Below, piece after piece: positions 12,151 to 20,801 of a DNA stretch of 36,749 nucleotides. The notes beneath the pieces are model-generated. The model ran no database searches. It was not told the origin of the DNA and saw only the letters and a list, made by a program, of their open reading frames with translations. The DNA comes from Acidobacteriaceae bacterium. Its GTDB lineage: Bacteria > Acidobacteriota > Terriglobia > Terriglobales > Acidobacteriaceae. The stretch's first letter is position 1, and each line of letters begins with the position of its first letter. A program made the position numbers and the translations under genes. The DNA lies in the NCBI GenBank assembly GCA_025361625.1, contig JANYKL010000120.1:1-36749 (forward strand), in the 5' to 3' direction.

Positions 12151-13506
12151 GTGAGGCCGCACGAATCGCAACATCCTCTGGCGCGCGCCTTTGCCTCCTT
12201 CACCGAGGCGGCGGGTTCGCTCGAGCGCGCTTACGGGCAGTTGCAGAGTCAGGTCGCACAACTGCGTCAGGAACTAGCAATGACAAATAGCAATCTAACG
12301 TCGAGTCTCGAAGAAAACCGCCGCATGCGGGAACGCCTGAGGCGCATTCTTGAGAGCTTGCCGTGTGGCGTGCTGGTTGTCGAGGCGAGTGATGCCCATG
12401 GACTGGGAGGGCCGATTTCAGAGCTTAATCCGGAAGCGGTTCGACTCCTCGGTCGCAATATCTCCTCATTCGAAGAGTTGCCTGGCGGTTGGCAGACAGC
12501 CCTTGCTAGCGTGTGCGGTCGAACGGAAGAAATCGAGTTGCCTCAGGTGGGGTTGATTCCGACGGCGGACGAAGGCGTTGATCCGGCAAACTGGGTGGCG
12601 ATCCGGCACGCTTGGCTCGAACACGCGGAAAGTATGCCAACATCCGTTTTCATCTTGCGCGATATCAGTGACGCAAAACGCATGGAGCGCGAGCGGGAGA
12701 GTTTGCGCCGGCAGCAGGCACTGGTCGAGGTTTCAGCGTTGCTTGCCCACGAGATCCGCAATCCGCTGGGCAGCCTCGAGCTTTTCGCCGGGCTGCTGGC
12801 GGAGGCGAATCTTGAAGGCGAGAGCCAGCGCTGGATCGAGCACGTGCAGGCCGGACTTCGCACCCTCTCCTCGACCGTGAATAACGTGCTCCATCTACAC
12901 AGCTCGCCCCCGCCAAATTTTACCGGCTTCGACGTCGGGGAATTGCTGAAATGGGCTTACGATTTTCTGCTTCCACTGGCAAAGCAAGCGAAGGTGGAAA
13001 TGCAGATTGTAAACGGTCTCGATCGCGTTTTTATCGCTGCCGACCGGCATCGCCTAGAGCAGGTTCTGCTCAATCTTGCGCTTAACGCCTTTCACTTCAT
13101 GCCAAATGGAGGGTGGCTCTCATTTCACGCTCGGGCTGATGCGGACAATGCCAACGCCATTTTTATCGAGGTGCGGGATAGCGGGCGTGGCATTCCCATG
13201 TCCGACCTGCTGCGTATATTTGACGCCGGGTTCAGCACTCGCCCGGGCAGTTCTGGACTTGGCCTGGCCGTGTGCCGCCGGATTCTTGAACAGCATGGCG
13301 GAACGATTCAAGTCCAGAGCAAGTTCATGAGCGGCTCGACATTCCTGCTCAAGCTTCCCCGCCAGCAAGTCACTCCGCAGGTTTTGTCCGCGGCGCCTTC
13401 GCAAGACCTCAAAAGCGTGTCGTTGAGGGATGCAGCATACCGCGCGCCCGTCCGCGCCAATATCTTAGGTTCGGTTTCTCAAAACGCAGAAGCGGCGGGT
13501 TTATGA
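12151..13506 (+). CDS. Sensor histidine kinase, FleS/FlgS-like
   Basis: Soluble two-component kinase, about 451 residues from the start chosen here. An N-terminal helical segment (AYGQLQSQVAQLRQELAM) is followed by a PAS-like region, an H-box LLAHEIRNPLGSLELF (His codon at 12748) and an HATPase domain with N-box LNLALNAFHFMPNGG, G1 DSGRGIP and G2 SSGLGLAVCRR. The open frame reaches back to a TTG at 12109, but that codon lies inside the sigma-54 promoter, so translation must begin later; the GTG at 12151 is the first likely start, without a strong ribosome site. There is no membrane helix. It overlaps the next gene by 4 bp (ATGA), so kinase and regulator are probably translated together. The likely partners are the flanking regulators. 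Confidence 0.88.
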   Translation: MRPHESQHPLARAFASFTEAAGSLERAYGQLQSQVAQLRQELAMTNSNLTSSLEENRRMRERLRRILESLPCGVLVVEASDAHGLGGPISELNPEAVRLLGRNISSFEELPGGWQTALASVCGRTEEIELPQVGLIPTADEGVDPANWVAIRHAWLEHAESMPTSVFILRDISDAKRMERERESLRRQQALVEVSALLAHEIRNPLGSLELFAGLLAEANLEGESQRWIEHVQAGLRTLSSTVNNVLHLHSSPPPNFTGFDVGELLKWAYDFLLPLAKQAKVEMQIVNGLDRVFIAADRHRLEQVLLNLALNAFHFMPNGGWLSFHARADADNANAIFIEVRDSGRGIPMSDLLRIFDAGFSTRPGSSGLGLAVCRRILEQHGGTIQVQSKFMSGSTFLLKLPRQQVTPQVLSAAPSQDLKSVSLRDAAYRAPVRANILGSVSQNAEAAGL

Positions 13507-14852
13507 AGCGCTTGCTGATCGCCGATGACGATGCGGGAATGCGTGCCGCGCTCGAAGCGCGCTTCAGCCGCCGCGGGTGGTTAGTGAATGTTGCGTCGAA
13601 CGGTACAGAGGCTTTGGAGAAATTTCGCTCCGGCTTGCATTCGCTCCTTATTACGGACGTGCGCATGCCCGGACGCGATGGCTTTCAGTTGCTCCGCGAG
13701 GTGCAGAGTTGCGCTTCCCGCACGGCGGTGATTCTTTTGACGGCCTACGCGTGCGTGCCCGACGCGGTCGATGCCATGCGTAATGGGGCTTGCGATTATC
13801 TCGTCAAGCCGGTCTGCTTCGAGAAGCTCGAACTGGCGGTCGAAGCGGTCATGCGGCGGGCCGATCAATTCGGCAAGGCCACGGAAAGCATGGTCGGAAG
13901 TTCGATTGGCTGGCGGCAGGCGCTCGAGCGCGCCCGGCAGGCATCCGCCACCGACGCCGATGTTTTGCTTGAAGCCGAGAGCGGCACCGGGAAAGAACTC
14001 GTGGCGCGCCTGATCCATCGCCTCAGCGCGCGAAAAGCCGGGCCGTTCGTTGCCCTTAACTGTACGGCCTTCCCGGAAAGCCTGCTGGAGAGCGAACTGT
14101 TCGGCCATGCTCGCGGCGCTTTTACCGGCGCGACCGAAGCGCGTCCGGGAAAATTCGAAACCGCTAACGGCGGCACGCTGCTACTCGACGAGGTTGGCGA
14201 GATGCCGCTTGCGCTGCAGCCGAAGCTGTTGCGCGCCCTGCAGGAGCGCGAGTTTGATCGCCTGGGATCGAACCACACCGTGCATGTCGACATACGCGTC
14301 ATTGCCACAAGTAACCGTCCGCTCGAAGCGGCGGTCGCCGAGGGCCGCTTCAGGGCGGATCTTTATTATCGTTTGAATGTCATCCCCCTTTGCCTACCGC
14401 CGCTGCGCGGACGCGCCGGCGATATACGCGAACTGGCGGAACATTTTGTTGGGCTTTATGCTTCTCCCGGAACCACACCGCGTTTTTCGCGAGCGCTCAT
14501 GGATGAACTGGAGAGCTCTGCCTGGCCCGGTAACGTTCGCGAGTTGGCAAATTTCGTGCGGCGCGCAGTGGCCCTATCCCCCGGTGGCGAGATCGGGCGG
14601 GAGGCGCTCGATCACGGCAGACGACCTTCGGAAAAGGCTGCGAAGTCTGTCCCCGACCAGCGCCCACCGGTGCTGCGCTTCGAGCCCGGGCACCCCGACG
14701 CCGACGCTAAAGGGTACGTGGCTTATCCGCAGGTTGATCCCATCGAAGAGATGACGGACCTGCTCGGAGCGGTGCGGGCCTATGAGATGAATGCCTCCGC
14801 CGTGCAGGCGACCAAAAACATGATCACGCAATCGCTTAGCCTGCTGCAGTAA
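13503..14852 (+). CDS. Chimera: NtrC-type response regulator fused to the C-terminus of rod protein FlgC
   Basis: 449 residues. Residues 1-118 are a receiver with phospho-Asp52 (LLITDVRMPGRDG) and Lys102 (YLVKP). Residues about 130-368 are a sigma-54 AAA+ domain with Walker A ESGTGKE, GAFTGA at 205-210, GGTLLLDEVGEMP and the closing WPGNVRELANFVRRA. Where a Fis-type helix-turn-helix should follow, residues about 383-449 instead match the end of the flagellar proximal rod protein FlgC: RFEPGHPDADAKGYVAYPQV, DPIEEMTDLLGAVRAYEMNA and TKNMITQSLSLL, comparable to YEPGNPLADANGYV and [20 protein letters not shown] in E. coli FlgC. The junction is near 14640-14650 and in frame. The simplest origin is a deletion from the end of a fleR-like gene into flgC, removing flgB. 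fliE follows, as it follows flgC elsewhere. Domain calls are strong; whether the fusion works is unknown. Confidence 0.9.
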   Translation: MKRLLIADDDAGMRAALEARFSRRGWLVNVASNGTEALEKFRSGLHSLLITDVRMPGRDGFQLLREVQSCASRTAVILLTAYACVPDAVDAMRNGACDYLVKPVCFEKLELAVEAVMRRADQFGKATESMVGSSIGWRQALERARQASATDADVLLEAESGTGKELVARLIHRLSARKAGPFVALNCTAFPESLLESELFGHARGAFTGATEARPGKFETANGGTLLLDEVGEMPLALQPKLLRALQEREFDRLGSNHTVHVDIRVIATSNRPLEAAVAEGRFRADLYYRLNVIPLCLPPLRGRAGDIRELAEHFVGLYASPGTTPRFSRALMDELESSAWPGNVRELANFVRRAVALSPGGEIGREALDHGRRPSEKAAKSVPDQRPPVLRFEPGHPDADAKGYVAYPQVDPIEEMTDLLGAVRAYEMNASAVQATKNMITQSLSLLQ

Positions 14853-15326: not shown

Positions 15327-16715
15327 TTGCAGCAAATTCAGGACTTCCTGCACGGTCTAACCCTCGGGCAGAAAGCTTTACTTGGAGGGGGAGCCGCAGC
15401 CGTCGTGCTCACATTGTGGCTCTTTGTCGGCCTGATCGATCACGGTAAAAATGTGGTTCTCTACAGCGGCCTCAAGCCGCAGGACGCGCAGGCGATGGGG
15501 GCGCGGCTCGCGGCAAAGGCCATTCCCTACGAGATTTCTGCGGATGGAACAAGCCTTCTAGTACCGGCGGAAAAACTGGACGCGGCGCGGCTCGAAACCG
15601 CCTCGCAAGGACTGCCGCGCAATGCACGCCTCGGCTTTGAACTGTTTGACACGCCAAACTGGGCGGGATCCGACTTCAGCGAACGAGTCAACTACCAGCG
15701 CGCTCTCGAAGGCGAACTGGAGCGCACGCTGCAGACTCTCGCAGAGGTCGAAGCGGTACGAGTGCACCTGGTTTTGCCGCGCGAATCACTCTTCACCGAG
15801 CAGGAGCGCGATTCGAAGGCGGCGGTCATTATCAAGACCCGCGGGGGGTCGTTGTCGAAGGAAGCGCAACACGCGATCCCGCAACTGGTGGCGAGCGCGG
15901 TTGACGGATTGAAGCCCGAAAACGTCACTGTGGTTGACGCGGAGACGGCGACGCCGTTTCTCTCGCGACGCGGACTCTCCGGCCGGGGCTCGTTCGATGC
16001 CGATGACGAACTCGCCGCAGCGGCAGTCCACGCCATCGAACCGGTTGTCGGCGCTGACCACGTGCGCGCCAGCGTGCATGTTGACTATGATCTCAGCAGC
16101 AGCGAAGACACATCTGAAATTTACGATCCGAAAGCGGCAGCAACGTTAATGCAGCAGCACAGCGAAGAACTCGCTGGCGGCGGCAGCCCGGCTGGGGTTC
16201 CCGGAGTTGCGAGTAACGTTCCCGCAAGCACCACTGCGGTTCCTCTTATTCCATCGGTGATCGATAACCAAAGCTCAAAAAACGAGAGCACCACATTCGC
16301 GGTGAGCAAGAACACGCGGCACACGACCAACCCCGCAGGCCGGGTGCGCCGTATCACGGCATCGGTGCTCATCGATGACGCCTTCGACCAGCCGGACGCG
16401 GCTACCGATAAGAAGACCGGATCTAAAACTACATCCAAGGCCGAATCCAACGCCGCATCTACGGCCGAATCCAAAACTGAAAATCAAGGAGGGCTGGGTC
16501 GGGCGCGGCCTGTCCGCAGGAAGCGCACGCCTGAGGAACTGGCGGCCATTGAGAAGCTCGCGCGTGCGGCCATCGGAGTCGACGAGCAACGCGGCGACCT
16601 GCTCGTAGTCGAAAATCTTTCCTTCCAGTCGCTCCCGATCGAAACCGTACCGCTCCCGGGATGGGTTGAACGCTGGCGCCTGCTTCTTCAGCCTTGGCTT
16701 GGCGCACTGCGCTAG
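15327..16715 (+). CDS. fliF: Flagellar MS-ring protein FliF, C-terminally truncated
   Basis: 462 residues against about 530-570 for complete FliF. It has LTLGQKALLG, the first membrane helix at about 18-38, ring-building YscJ/FliF domains (VVLYSGLKPQDAQAMGARL; PRNARLGFELFDTPNWAGSDF; QRALEGELERTLQTL; VRVHLVLPRESLFTEQERDS; VDYDLSSSEDTSEIYDP) and a low-complexity linker rich in K, T, S, E. The protein stops at LLLQPWLGALR, where the second membrane helix should begin, so that helix and the FliG-binding end are absent. None of the three plus-strand frames downstream contains the missing part. The start shown is TTG at 15327; a CTG at 15315 would give NRTLQQIQDF, closer to FliF N-termini. No fliG or other flagellar gene follows. 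Confidence 0.92.
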   Translation: MQQIQDFLHGLTLGQKALLGGGAAAVVLTLWLFVGLIDHGKNVVLYSGLKPQDAQAMGARLAAKAIPYEISADGTSLLVPAEKLDAARLETASQGLPRNARLGFELFDTPNWAGSDFSERVNYQRALEGELERTLQTLAEVEAVRVHLVLPRESLFTEQERDSKAAVIIKTRGGSLSKEAQHAIPQLVASAVDGLKPENVTVVDAETATPFLSRRGLSGRGSFDADDELAAAAVHAIEPVVGADHVRASVHVDYDLSSSEDTSEIYDPKAAATLMQQHSEELAGGGSPAGVPGVASNVPASTTAVPLIPSVIDNQSSKNESTTFAVSKNTRHTTNPAGRVRRITASVLIDDAFDQPDAATDKKTGSKTTSKAESNAASTAESKTENQGGLGRARPVRRKRTPEELAAIEKLARAAIGVDEQRGDLLVVENLSFQSLPIETVPLPGWVERWRLLLQPWLGALR

Positions 16716-16987: not shown

Positions 16988-17175
16988 GAACAGAGAGTCT
17001 CGTGAAACTCGTTAAGGTTGGCGGCGGAGCAGGTCACGCGCGGCCGGAAGCCAGCCGGCGCAATGCGCTTGGAATTTGGACGGTGATGCTCATAAGATCT
17101 TCGGACCTCTATCCCTATCTATCTTCTACCCTTCGCGTTCGAGCGGACGTGTAATTACCACTAAACCCTTGGCTT
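16988..17175. other. Intergenic region between flagellar remnant and thrC
   Basis: No coding frame, RNA gene or terminator recognised. The nearby stretch up to 17209 contains the degenerate palindrome copy C. Confidence 0.5.
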
Positions 17176-17209: not shown

Positions 17210-18526
17210 TTAGCCGGCTACGGCAACCTCTTCAAGTGCAGCGGGCGCGTTTGCCGCTTTGGCTGAAAAGTATGCTTCGAACTCGACCAGCTTTGGAGCG
17301 ATTGGAACTTCTGCCTGATATTTATCGGACAGAACGTCAGTCGTCTTCAATCCGTTGCCGGTGATGCAGAGCACGGTTGTTTCATCGGGGAGGATGCGAT
17401 CTTGCGCGATGAGCTTGCGCGCACATCCGACGGTCACGCCGCCTGCGGTTTCAGTGAAGATACCTTCGGTCTCGGCGAGCAGCTGAATGTGGTTTATGAC
17501 TTCGGCGTCCGACCCATCTTCCGACCAGCCGCCGCTCTGCGCAATGGCCCGGATCGCGTAATGGCCGTCGGCCGGATTTCCAATTGCGAGGGAGCGCGCA
17601 ATTGTATTCGGACGTTGGGGCTCGATTTCAGAAGCGCATTGTTTTACGGCGGTCGAAATCGGGGAGCATCCGGCCGCTTGCGCGCCAAAAAATCTCACTG
17701 CTTTCGGATCGACCAGGCCAAGCAAAATCAATTCATCGAATGCCTTCTTGATTTTCGTGATTAACGAACCGCCCGCCATTGGCACAACGACGTTATCGGG
17801 CAAAGTCCAGCCCAATTGCTCGGCGATTTCGTAGCCCACCGTCTTCGAGCCTTCCGCGTAGTAAGGACGCAGATTTACGTTTACGAAGCCCCAACGATGT
17901 TCATCAGCGATCTGGGAGCACAGGCGATTCACGTGATCGTAGCTGCCGTTGATGCGCACGAGTTCGGCTCCAAACACCTGCGTGCCGAGAATTTTTGCCG
18001 GCTCTAAATCGGACGGAATAAAGATCCAAGCCTTCAATCCGGCGCGAGCCGCTTGCGCCGCCACGGAGTTTGCCAGGTTTCCGGTAGAGGAGCAGGCGAC
18101 AGTGTCGAATCCAAAACTGCGCGCATTCGCCAAGGCAACTGCGACCACGCGGTCTTTGAAGCTCAAAGTCGGCAAACACACAGCGTCGTTCTTCAGGAGC
18201 AGCTTGCGCGACCCTATTCTCGCCCCTAGTCGCGGAGCGTGAAGCAGCGGAGTGAACCCTACCGGCAGAGTAGGCTCGAATCCCGCTGGAAGCGGCAAAA
18301 GCTCGCGGTAGCGCCACATATTCGGCGCGCGTGACGCGAATAAATCGCGCGAAATGAGCGGCCGAATGGACTCGTAATCAAAATTGACTTCCAGGGGAGA
18401 GAAACAATCTTCGCAGATGCTGCGCGGCTGGTTGCCCCAGGCTTTGCCGCATTCGCGGCACCGGAGCTCGTAGGTGCTAGTCGTATTTAAATGCGAGGCA
18501 TTTTGCCCGCTGCTCGGCGTAGTCAT
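17210..18526 (-). CDS. thrC: Threonine synthase
   Basis: PLP enzyme that converts O-phosphohomoserine to threonine. 438 residues. A zinc-ribbon-like N-terminus (Cys23, Cys26, Cys38, Cys41) precedes the fold-type II core, with Lys124 in LSFKDR as the PLP Schiff-base Lys, and the motif ACSSTGNLANSVAAQAARAG. The substrate region GFTPLLHAPRLG and the ending TVLCITGNGLKTTD also fit. The start at 18526 is preceded by a weak GAAGG site. The leader contains a SAM riboswitch and a terminator, so expression should respond to S-adenosylmethionine. Because such control is more usual for methionine genes, a related PLP enzyme acting on O-phosphohomoserine is an alternative, but the sequence reads as ThrC. 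Confidence 0.92.
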   Translation of the reverse strand: MTTPSSGQNASHLNTTSTYELRCRECGKAWGNQPRSICEDCFSPLEVNFDYESIRPLISRDLFASRAPNMWRYRELLPLPAGFEPTLPVGFTPLLHAPRLGARIGSRKLLLKNDAVCLPTLSFKDRVVAVALANARSFGFDTVACSSTGNLANSVAAQAARAGLKAWIFIPSDLEPAKILGTQVFGAELVRINGSYDHVNRLCSQIADEHRWGFVNVNLRPYYAEGSKTVGYEIAEQLGWTLPDNVVVPMAGGSLITKIKKAFDELILLGLVDPKAVRFFGAQAAGCSPISTAVKQCASEIEPQRPNTIARSLAIGNPADGHYAIRAIAQSGGWSEDGSDAEVINHIQLLAETEGIFTETAGGVTVGCARKLIAQDRILPDETTVLCITGNGLKTTDVLSDKYQAEVPIAPKLVEFEAYFSAKAANAPAALEEVAVAG

Positions 18527-18581
18527 ATATCTGCCTTCTGTGACTGACGGGACGAGCCGGGAGAAAATACCCCAGTTAACA

Positions 18582-18613
18582 CAAAACCCCTTTTCCTGAA
18601 ATGGGAAAAGAGG
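18582..18613 (-). terminator. Rho-independent terminator in the thrC leader
   Basis: On the minus strand CCTCTTTTCC pairs with GGAAAAGGGG (one T-G pair) around a short loop and is followed by TTTTGTG. It sits between the riboswitch aptamer and the thrC start, so it is the likely expression platform, with termination when SAM is bound. Confidence 0.7.
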
Positions 18614-18646
18614 CTCGGGAAGTGCGAATCAAATTTTCGCGTACCC

Positions 18647-18763
18647 GAATCTCATGGTCCCCGTTACCGGGCGAGAGTTGGCACCTGCGATGGAGATATA
18701 TGATCCCGATCCGGTTGCCGTGGCGTCCTAGGGCTCGTCCCTCAGCCACTCTGCATGAAATTC
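18647..18763 (-). promoter_or_regulatory. SAM-I-type riboswitch aptamer controlling thrC
   Basis: Read on the minus strand, a 10-bp P1 stem (GAATTTCATG at 18754-18763 with CATGAGATTC at 18647-18656, one wobble) closes the region. Inside are the conserved SAM-I blocks in order: CAGAGTGGCTGAGGGACGAG, GCCCTAGGACGCCACGGCAA directly followed by CC, a variable P3, AGGTGCCAACTC, and a P4 hairpin CCCGGTAACGGG. This arrangement and spacing are specific to the SAM-I clan (SAM-I or SAM-IV variants). A terminator and thrC follow. Confidence 0.85.
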
Positions 18764-18800
18764 TAAGCTTGCCCGATTGAGGAGCAAACTTGAGCAAAGC

Positions 18801-18827
18801 TTAATACCGATCCCTGCGGCATGTCAA
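18801..18827 (-). promoter_or_regulatory. Promoter for the SAM riboswitch-thrC transcript
   Basis: On the minus strand TTGACA (18822-18827) and TATTAA (18801-18806) with a short 15-bp spacer. A start near 18793 would lie about 30 nt before the aptamer. Confidence 0.45.
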
Positions 18828-18829
18828 GA

Positions 18830-19127
18830 GGACCGCATAGTATGGCCTCTTCCATCGTTACTTTAGATGGTCTACAACGGTTCTATGTCTTCGATAAGTC
18901 TACGAGCTTTTTCACCTGCTACTAAAGGCTTCTCCTGATCACAGATATTGCCGAACTATGGCTTGATAGAGAAACATATACACATGTGAATTAGAGCATT
19001 ACAAGTTTGCGCAATTCTTAGCGCACTCCGGTATGAACCGAGGTGTGTTTTTCGAGTCTCAGAGGACTCCTTTTCAAGGCGACGTTCAACGCCTTCAATT
19101 TCCCGCAAAGCCTCGCAGGAGGGCAAG
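18830..19127. other. Upstream region of the OmpA-domain gene
   Basis: About 300 bp of comparatively AT-rich sequence between the divergent thrC and OmpA-like promoters. No gene is evident. No -10/-35 pair with good spacing was found for the plus strand. Confidence 0.4.
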
Positions 19128-20801
19128 ATGCTTAAAAAACAATTCTTTTCACTTTGTGGCGGTTGGCTACTGTGCGTCCCCTTGATCGCGTTGCACGCTC
19201 AGAACGATCAGCCACAGTCGAATGACGCGCCGCCTCCTACAGAACAAATGGGTCAGACGCCGGTGTTCCGCACCGAGGTCGTCTCGAGCACTACAAAGGC
19301 GGTCGACTACCGGCACCGCGGAGGTTCCACAGAAGTTGATATAGCTGGAACCGACCTGATGCCTGAGGTTCGTGGCGAAGCCAAGGTCGACAGCAAGAGC
19401 GGACGCCTCGAAATCAAAGTAAAAGCGAACGGCTTGGAACCGGCTGACAAGTTTGGACTTGAATATCTGACGTATGTGTTATGGGCGATCACTCCAGAAG
19501 GGCGCGCTAACAATCTTGCGGAAATTATCCTTGATCACGGCAAGGCTGACGTCCACGCCACGACCGATCTGCAGGCCTTCGGCTTAATCATTACAGCGGA
19601 ACCTTACTTCGCAGTGACGCAACCGAGCGAGCTTGTGGTCGCACAAAACGTCATTCGCACCGACACCAAAGGTCGCGAGGAGTTCATCAACGTCAAGTAT
19701 GAACTACTTCCTAAAGGACTCTACGCATCACAGGTGGAACCGATTGGCGATGTTATTTATGGAAAGGATCGCAAGGCTCCTTTGGATTTGTTCGAAGCTC
19801 GCAACGCGGTCAGAATCGCACGTGCTTCGAGGTCGGAGCAGTATGCGGCCAGCATATTCGCCAAGGCCGAGGCCGACCTTAAGCAGGCGGAAGATTACTA
19901 CCGCAGGAAGCAGGGAAGAACTCCGATCGGTACGGTTGCCCGCGAAGCGATACAGACCGCGGAAGAAGCCAGAGTGATGTCGCTCAAGCGTCAGGAAGAC
20001 GAGCGAGCTCAACAAGACAGGGATGCAGCCGCGGCGCGCGAAGCCCAGGCGAACGCGCAAGCAGAAGATGAGAGTCGTCGTCGAAGCCAGGCGGAAAGCG
20101 ACCGGAGCGCCGCAGAGCAGGCCCGCGATGATGCAGATCGAGCGCGCAAGGAAGCAGAGCTAGCGGCGCAAAAGGCCTCGCAAGAAAAGCAGGAGGCCCA
20201 GGCTGCGCAAGCTGCGGCGCTTGCACAGCAGCAGGCGTTGCAGGCTGAGAACGAAAAGGCCCGTGCCCTGGCCGATGAAGCACAACGCGGGCGTCAGCAG
20301 GCAGAATCGGATAAAGCTGCCATGAGAGCCCGGTTGTTGCAGCAACTTAACGCTGTTCTGGTTACACGAGATACCGCGCGTGGTTTGATTTCGACAATGC
20401 CCGACGTTCTCTTTGAAAATGCCAGATATACGTTACGGCCGGCAGCGCGAGAGAGCTTGGCTAGGGTTGCGGGAATCCTGTTGGCCTATCCCGATCTACG
20501 ACTCGAAGTCGACGGCCACACCGATAGCGTGGGTTCAGATGCCTACAATCAGGAACTCTCTGAAAAGCGCGCCGCCGCAACGCGGGATTATCTCGTGCAG
20601 CAAGGCCTTCCGCTGGCTTCCGTCACGACTATGGGTTTCGGTAAGACGCAGCCCATCGCGTCAAATTCGACTGCTGCCGGGCGGCAGCAGAATCGCAGGG
20701 TAGAAGTGGTGGTTTCGGGCGAGGTTATCGGTGGCCAGATTGGTGGAGGCACAGCTACGGACTCAGACTCAACGCAAGGCCCTGCTCAGAATCCTCAGTA
20801 G
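19128..20801 (+). CDS. OmpA-domain peptidoglycan-binding envelope protein with coiled coil
   Basis: 557 residues. A signal peptide ends near ALHAQ (residue 25). Residues about 45-220 form a conserved globular domain that I cannot name. Residues about 245-400 are a long Ala/Glu/Gln/Arg-rich coiled coil. The C-terminal OmpA/MotB domain (about 420-530) includes MPDVLFENARYTLRPAARES, LRLEVDGHTDSVGSDAYNQE and NRRVEVVVSG, the expected peptidoglycan-binding motifs. An N-terminal domain on a rod, anchored to the wall by OmpA, fits an envelope spacer or Pal-like role. The ATG at 19128 has CAGGAGGG upstream. It has its own terminator and appears monocistronic. Confidence 0.88.
   Translation: MLKKQFFSLCGGWLLCVPLIALHAQNDQPQSNDAPPPTEQMGQTPVFRTEVVSSTTKAVDYRHRGGSTEVDIAGTDLMPEVRGEAKVDSKSGRLEIKVKANGLEPADKFGLEYLTYVLWAITPEGRANNLAEIILDHGKADVHATTDLQAFGLIITAEPYFAVTQPSELVVAQNVIRTDTKGREEFINVKYELLPKGLYASQVEPIGDVIYGKDRKAPLDLFEARNAVRIARASRSEQYAASIFAKAEADLKQAEDYYRRKQGRTPIGTVAREAIQTAEEARVMSLKRQEDERAQQDRDAAAAREAQANAQAEDESRRRSQAESDRSAAEQARDDADRARKEAELAAQKASQEKQEAQAAQAAALAQQQALQAENEKARALADEAQRGRQQAESDKAAMRARLLQQLNAVLVTRDTARGLISTMPDVLFENARYTLRPAARESLARVAGILLAYPDLRLEVDGHTDSVGSDAYNQELSEKRAAATRDYLVQQGLPLASVTTMGFGKTQPIASNSTAAGRQQNRRVEVVVSGEVIGGQIGGGTATDSDSTQGPAQNPQ

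Follow-up and report, generated by a model that had tools for sequence, protein, structure and literature searches.

A SAM riboswitch preceding a metM gene is a known arrangement, to which the DNA analysed here (the window, a stretch of 36,749 nucleotides from contig JANYKL010000120.1 of the Acidobacteriaceae bacterium assembly GCA_025361625.1) adds a probable case from the Acidobacteriaceae, with a gene that is probably misnamed. In Streptomyces, metM is reportedly followed by metO, whose product is said to donate sulfur as a thiocarboxylate. According to PMC12172450, Hasebe et al. (2024, Appl Environ Microbiol 90:e01247-24) identified the Streptomyces MetM as a homocysteine synthase acting on O-phosphohomoserine, and a SAM riboswitch lies upstream of the S. 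albulus metM gene. The same source describes threonine synthase and deaminase activities for a Microcystis homologue, whose gene adjoins one that resembles S. albulus metO and carries a sulfur-carrier annotation. In this line, the data tabulated for S. lividans TK24 place an RF00162 motif before a two-gene ‘threonine biosynthesis’ operon, SLIV_16930-SLIV_16925 (PMC8079986, Table 3), which we infer to be the metM operon. The pattern described for S. albulus, that is, a threonine synthase (ThrC) homologue with an upstream SAM riboswitch and a MetO partner, is also the one found in the family of the window protein, whereas the window itself comes from another phylum, carries a broken metO and encodes a putative MetM. 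In the openly licensed literature, we found no paper linking a SAM riboswitch with threonine synthase, or with methionine biosynthesis, in Acidobacteria.

When the complete window was compared by cmscan with the 4227 families of Rfam, a single match reached its gathering threshold, the SAM-I (S-box) riboswitch RF00162 on the minus strand (18649..18761). The match covers the complete model (positions 1-108) with 68.7 bits against a gathering cut-off of 44.4 (E 3.6e-14), so both its score and its length place it within the family, and it is the only RF00162 match in the entire source genome, which is 95.7% complete. Its P1 stem, formed by AUUUCAUG and CAUGAGAU, comprises 8 pairs, one of them G-U. 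This complete match bears out the SAM-I aptamer and the intact P1 stem that the original prediction had read in the minus-strand leader. The full-length model match, the P1 stem and a terminator-like hairpin downstream are all shared with known SAM-I riboswitches; no essential difference was found, the target gene being odd by its database name only. Judged by its sequence, the window leader is a real and well-formed SAM-I riboswitch, which would be expected to bind SAM.

Beyond the aptamer, a putative intrinsic terminator (18580..18613, minus) is composed of the arms 18613-18604 and 18596-18587 followed by UUUUGUG. This hairpin has a 10-pair core, the segment 18575-18616 folds at -16.4 kcal/mol, and our own hairpin scan recovered it as a 13-pair form. 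A generic consensus scan of positions 18400-19400 reported neither this hairpin nor a sigma-70-type promoter, and for this reason the terminator call rests on the fold together with the similar CCTCTTTTCC...GGAAAAG hairpins present in near relatives of the window. The terminator of the original prediction is thereby present as a terminator-like hairpin followed by a U-run. Among 94 loci, a set that contains repeats, 54 had a terminator-like hairpin within 130 bases after the aptamer, compared with 28% of mononucleotide shuffles, which are a weak control. A possible antiterminator (18610..18653, minus) would result from the pairing of 18653-18644 (GAGAUUCGGG) with 18619-18610 (CCCGAGCCUC). The first of these strands overlaps the 3′ strand of P1, and the pairing is incompatible with P1 as well as with the lower terminator stem. 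When the alternative folds were imposed, P1 plus terminator reached -68.3 kcal/mol versus -60.8 kcal/mol for the antiterminator, and the free optimum fold (-69.3 kcal/mol) kept the terminator without keeping the full P1. As modelled, these folds permit a switch, with no clear ON state emerging from the folds alone.

The gene that follows this leader (17210..18526, minus) encodes a PLP-dependent ThrC homologue of 438 aa with a PF00291 domain. The protein scores 255.9 bits with the equivalog model TIGR00260 (thrC), above its cut-off of 167.1, and consequently the gene would be named thrC; with PRK08197, another ThrC model, it scores 276.4 bits, below the cut-off of 303. The TIGR00260 score, together with the threonine synthase and deaminase activity given for the Microcystis relative in PMC12172450, would fit a true threonine synthase, in which case high SAM would lower threonine synthesis along with that of methionine. 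We consider this quite improbable. Two further ThrC homologues were found in the source genome, with 34% and 32% identity to the window protein. One of them, on contig C150, adjoins thrB near ilvE, scores 268.9 bits with TIGR00260, shares 40-46% identity with solved ThrCs and keeps the motifs SVNPxRxEGQKT and GNxGN, as read from the alignment of the tree sequences; the other, on C162, reaches 567 bits with PRK08197. The window protein shows NVNLRPYYAEGSKT and AGGSL in place of those two motifs. It shares with the solved ThrCs (PDB 6cgq, 2zsj, 1uim, 2d1f and 1e5x) the PF00291 domain, the SFKD lysine motif and 29-36% identity, but neither groups with them in the tree nor keeps their motifs. Moreover, a true threonine synthase would not account for the anti-correlation with metX or for the sulfur-carrier gene next door in relatives, both described below.

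The tree, built with FastTree from 132 rows and 403 columns, places the window protein with 124 further rows in one clade (SH-like support 0.887) that has no intruder among the 7 other rows and is separate from both paralogues of the genome and from the five solved ThrCs. Those 124 rows are 43 from the family sample, 80 from named loci and one from Nonomuraea gerenzanensis, with at least five rows repeating others. The nearest actinomycete orthologue in this tree is that of N. gerenzanensis, and the window gene is connected with S. albulus MetM indirectly, by the family pattern, this orthologue and PMC12172450, which cites the discovery; this indirectness counts against the MetM assignment. 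Altogether, the gene predicted to be a threonine synthase is indeed a ThrC homologue, but its clade, its motifs and the thrB-linked ThrC on C150 indicate that this genome probably has another protein as its threonine synthase. The contrast that had been drawn with the SAM-activated threonine synthase of plants turns out to be beside the point, as the plant enzyme (1e5x) is a distant homologue with 29% identity, aligned only from residue 90 of the window protein, and itself departs from the SVNPxRxEGQKT motif. As a minor observation on this protein family, several Cys residues of an N-terminal zinc-ribbon-like motif are replaced by Ser or other residues in two of the MetM orthologues (L018 and L019).

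The association between riboswitch and gene was followed in a sample of 100 genomes of the same family as the source, searched with strict filters by which weak matches can be lost. RF00162 matches appeared in 46 of these genomes, 44 of them over the curated cut-off, with 48 matches in total. As many as 44 of the 48, the window included, stand on the same strand as a gene orthologous to that of the window protein (65-85% identity) and 46-221 bases upstream of it. Two of the remaining matches (L051 and L053) lie at a contig end, and the other two precede a NifS/IscS-like cysteine desulfurase, each being a second SAM-I riboswitch directly before that gene (L036, 5163-6571, minus; L050, 2644-4034, plus). 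In this regard, S. lividans TK24 resembles the window relatives not only by RF00162 before a threonine-labelled operon but also by having a cysteine desulfurase gene preceded by a SAM riboswitch; according to PMC8079986 that leader is SAM-IV, whereas it is SAM-I in these two relatives.

Two counts weigh against the reading of a MetM gene under SAM-I control. The first is that 7 of the 51 family genomes with a MetM gene gave no RF00162 match (G004, G005, G011, G018, G022, G050 and G068); in G022 and G068 the gene lies less than 200 bases from a contig edge, which is not so in the other five. The second comes from a set of named loci formed by the best 80 of 578 confirmed relatives, where Acidobacteria are over-represented because the most similar relatives were taken: RF00162 was present in 48 of them (18, 9, 8 and 13 in successive batches of 20), which speaks for this reading, but 32 lacked a match, four of these having less than 210 bases upstream. 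The named loci overlap the family sample, with at least 8 of the 80 on contigs equal in length to one of that sample; five MetM stretches are identical, so the tree rows and the 94 loci scanned for hairpins contain repeats. Going by record titles, the riboswitch-bearing ones include Acidobacteria, Planctomycetota/Gemmata, Verrucomicrobiota, Kiritimatiellae, Deltaproteobacteria and Egibacter. The N. gerenzanensis orthologue (52-53% identity) also has an RF00162 motif before the gene (68.7 bits), as well as a MetO-like gene.

A sulfur-carrier neighbour is the usual companion of metM among the relatives. Leaving the window aside, 14 family loci extend for over 300 bases beyond the gene, and in all of them the next gene is MetO-like, its product having roughly 92 aa and an AGG that ends the protein or lies close to its C-terminus; the one such protein that was tested belongs to the ThiS family, and in L047 metO is followed in turn by a homoserine dehydrogenase gene (hom). 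A MetO-like ORF was found somewhere within 74 of the 80 named loci, although a few lie more than 1 kb from the gene and several of the matches are stop-to-stop stretches overlapping metM; the six loci without one are L073, L094, L114, L119, L121 and L130. At the genome level, strong MetO matches (at least 125 bits) occurred in 48 of the 100 family genomes, 47 of which are among the 51 with a MetM gene. Some peculiar forms were seen as well. The MetO-like proteins of L048, L077 and L082 carry, after the GG, Cys-rich tails of 18-42 residues with 8-9 Cys and a SYCGQE motif, which would need removal or serve another purpose. In L069 (4173-4582), metO seems split over two overlapping frames, possibly a second broken copy or a sequencing error. 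An apparent MetM-MetO fusion in L118 was discarded after comparing the frames by hand.

In the window, metO is reduced to a remnant (17015..17093, minus) that corresponds approximately to codons 1-28 and is interrupted by an in-frame stop after codon 19; the remainder of the gene is not recognisable. Aligned with the metO of three relatives, 17093-17015 scored 46, 78 and 66, with shuffle maxima of 35, 34 and 38. Elsewhere the source genome gave no strong MetO, its single match, of 88.7 bits on contig C80, corresponding to a ThiS-family protein that adjoins a MoeB-rhodanese protein. A similar protein in another family genome (G093) is accompanied by cysM-like, JAMM (desampylase-like) and MoeB-like genes, and on this basis we label the C80 protein CysO-like. 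The broken metO weighs against a MetM function for the window gene, with an assembly error as an alternative. Two more of the 51 MetM genomes, G011 and G013, are without a strong MetO (G086 is truncated at a contig end), so that the neighbouring metO looks to have been lost repeatedly (G000, G011 and G013 among the 51, plus the six named loci). We tentatively suggest that MetM might work here independently of MetO, with sulfur coming from the CysO-like carrier of C80 or from sulfide, while control by the SAM riboswitch was kept; this possibility seems to us somewhat less probable than its opposite.

The retention of metM after the loss of metO would also suit an enzyme of dual function, in which MetM-like homocysteine synthesis is accompanied by residual threonine synthesis or deamination and SAM would trim both branches, such activities being those described for the cyanobacterial homologue in PMC12172450. 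We regard this as unlikely, since the two other ThrC homologues make a second activity unnecessary, without excluding it. The window metM retains every one of the 166 residues that do not vary among 43 orthologues, and its pairwise dN/dS values against six relatives are 0.05-0.09, with dS saturated; they reveal no relaxation, although they do not separate the two activities. Read from these comparisons, metM is intact and under purifying selection.

The gene content of the methionine pathway points in the same direction as the neighbouring genes. With a limit of at least 589 bits, and adding a partial gene from a contig edge (G068), a MetM gene is present in 51 of the 100 family genomes; a strong metX is present in 31, with both in only 4 (Fisher p 2.6e-7, a value that overstates independence and is indicative only, as the test treats genomes with shared ancestry as independent). 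The limit for a strong metX is our own: scores are bimodal, with 31 genomes reaching at least 282 bits, and matches of up to 156 bits were treated as unrelated; the curated cut-off of 500 was reached in none of the 100 genomes. A metA-like PF04204 protein occurs in 9 of the 100 genomes, 7 of them with a MetM gene, and these seven, like the four MetM genomes with metX, count against the MetM assignment. The location of metX and hom had been proposed as informative: in the source genome we found no metX match at E 0.001 and no metA (PF04204), whereas hom is present, in two pieces (C115, 10169-10426, and C173, 6-257), along with thrB, metH and metK. Two PF01053 proteins, one of them cut by a contig start, are nearest to cystathionine gamma-lyase/synthase models and fall below all the cut-offs shown, so a transsulfuration route through them is possible. 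Such a route, or uptake, would provide methionine if the riboswitch were a relic that persists passively next to a dead metO reduced to its first third. This is very improbable in our opinion, as the aptamer fits its model over the full length, metM retains its invariant residues under purifying selection, and both metX and metA were missing from the searches of the source genome.

Of the two readings of the target offered originally, that of an enzyme closer to methionine synthesis is favoured by the sulfur-carrier neighbour in relatives, the metX anti-correlation and the separate thrB-linked ThrC, over that of a threonine supply cut together with methionine. It is highly probable, in our view, that the SAM-I riboswitch acts by terminating transcription and that the gene under its control encodes a homocysteine synthase of the MetM type, in an ordinary case of end-product feedback. 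When SAM is scarce, the leader would be read through and MetM made; by homology with the Streptomyces enzyme, MetM would take the O-phosphohomoserine produced by Hom and ThrB and exchange its phosphate for sulfur, and the resulting homocysteine would be converted by MetH and MetK into methionine and SAM. With MetO broken, the sulfur may come from the other carrier on C80 or from sulfide. When SAM is abundant, the aptamer would close P1 and free the terminator, and transcription would stop before metM. Control would act at the branch point at which O-phosphohomoserine is diverted from threonine synthesis. Since the gene is identified as metM-like, the paradox of a SAM switch acting on threonine synthesis fades, and the regulation would have its usual sign, with high SAM switching off methionine synthesis. 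As TIGR00260 labels this protein a threonine synthase, the methionine route of bacteria that have it could be read as missing, and a ‘thrC’ preceded by a SAM riboswitch is a helpful pointer to MetM. The broken metO provides a natural experiment on whether MetM depends on a dedicated sulfur carrier.

Elsewhere in the window, near fliF (15327-16715), a gene on the plus strand (13503-14852) encodes a response regulator with a sigma-54 AAA+ domain, whose C-terminus matches the C-terminal domain of the FlgE/F/G rod proteins, PF06429 (41 bits, residues 403-446), an unusual combination of domains.
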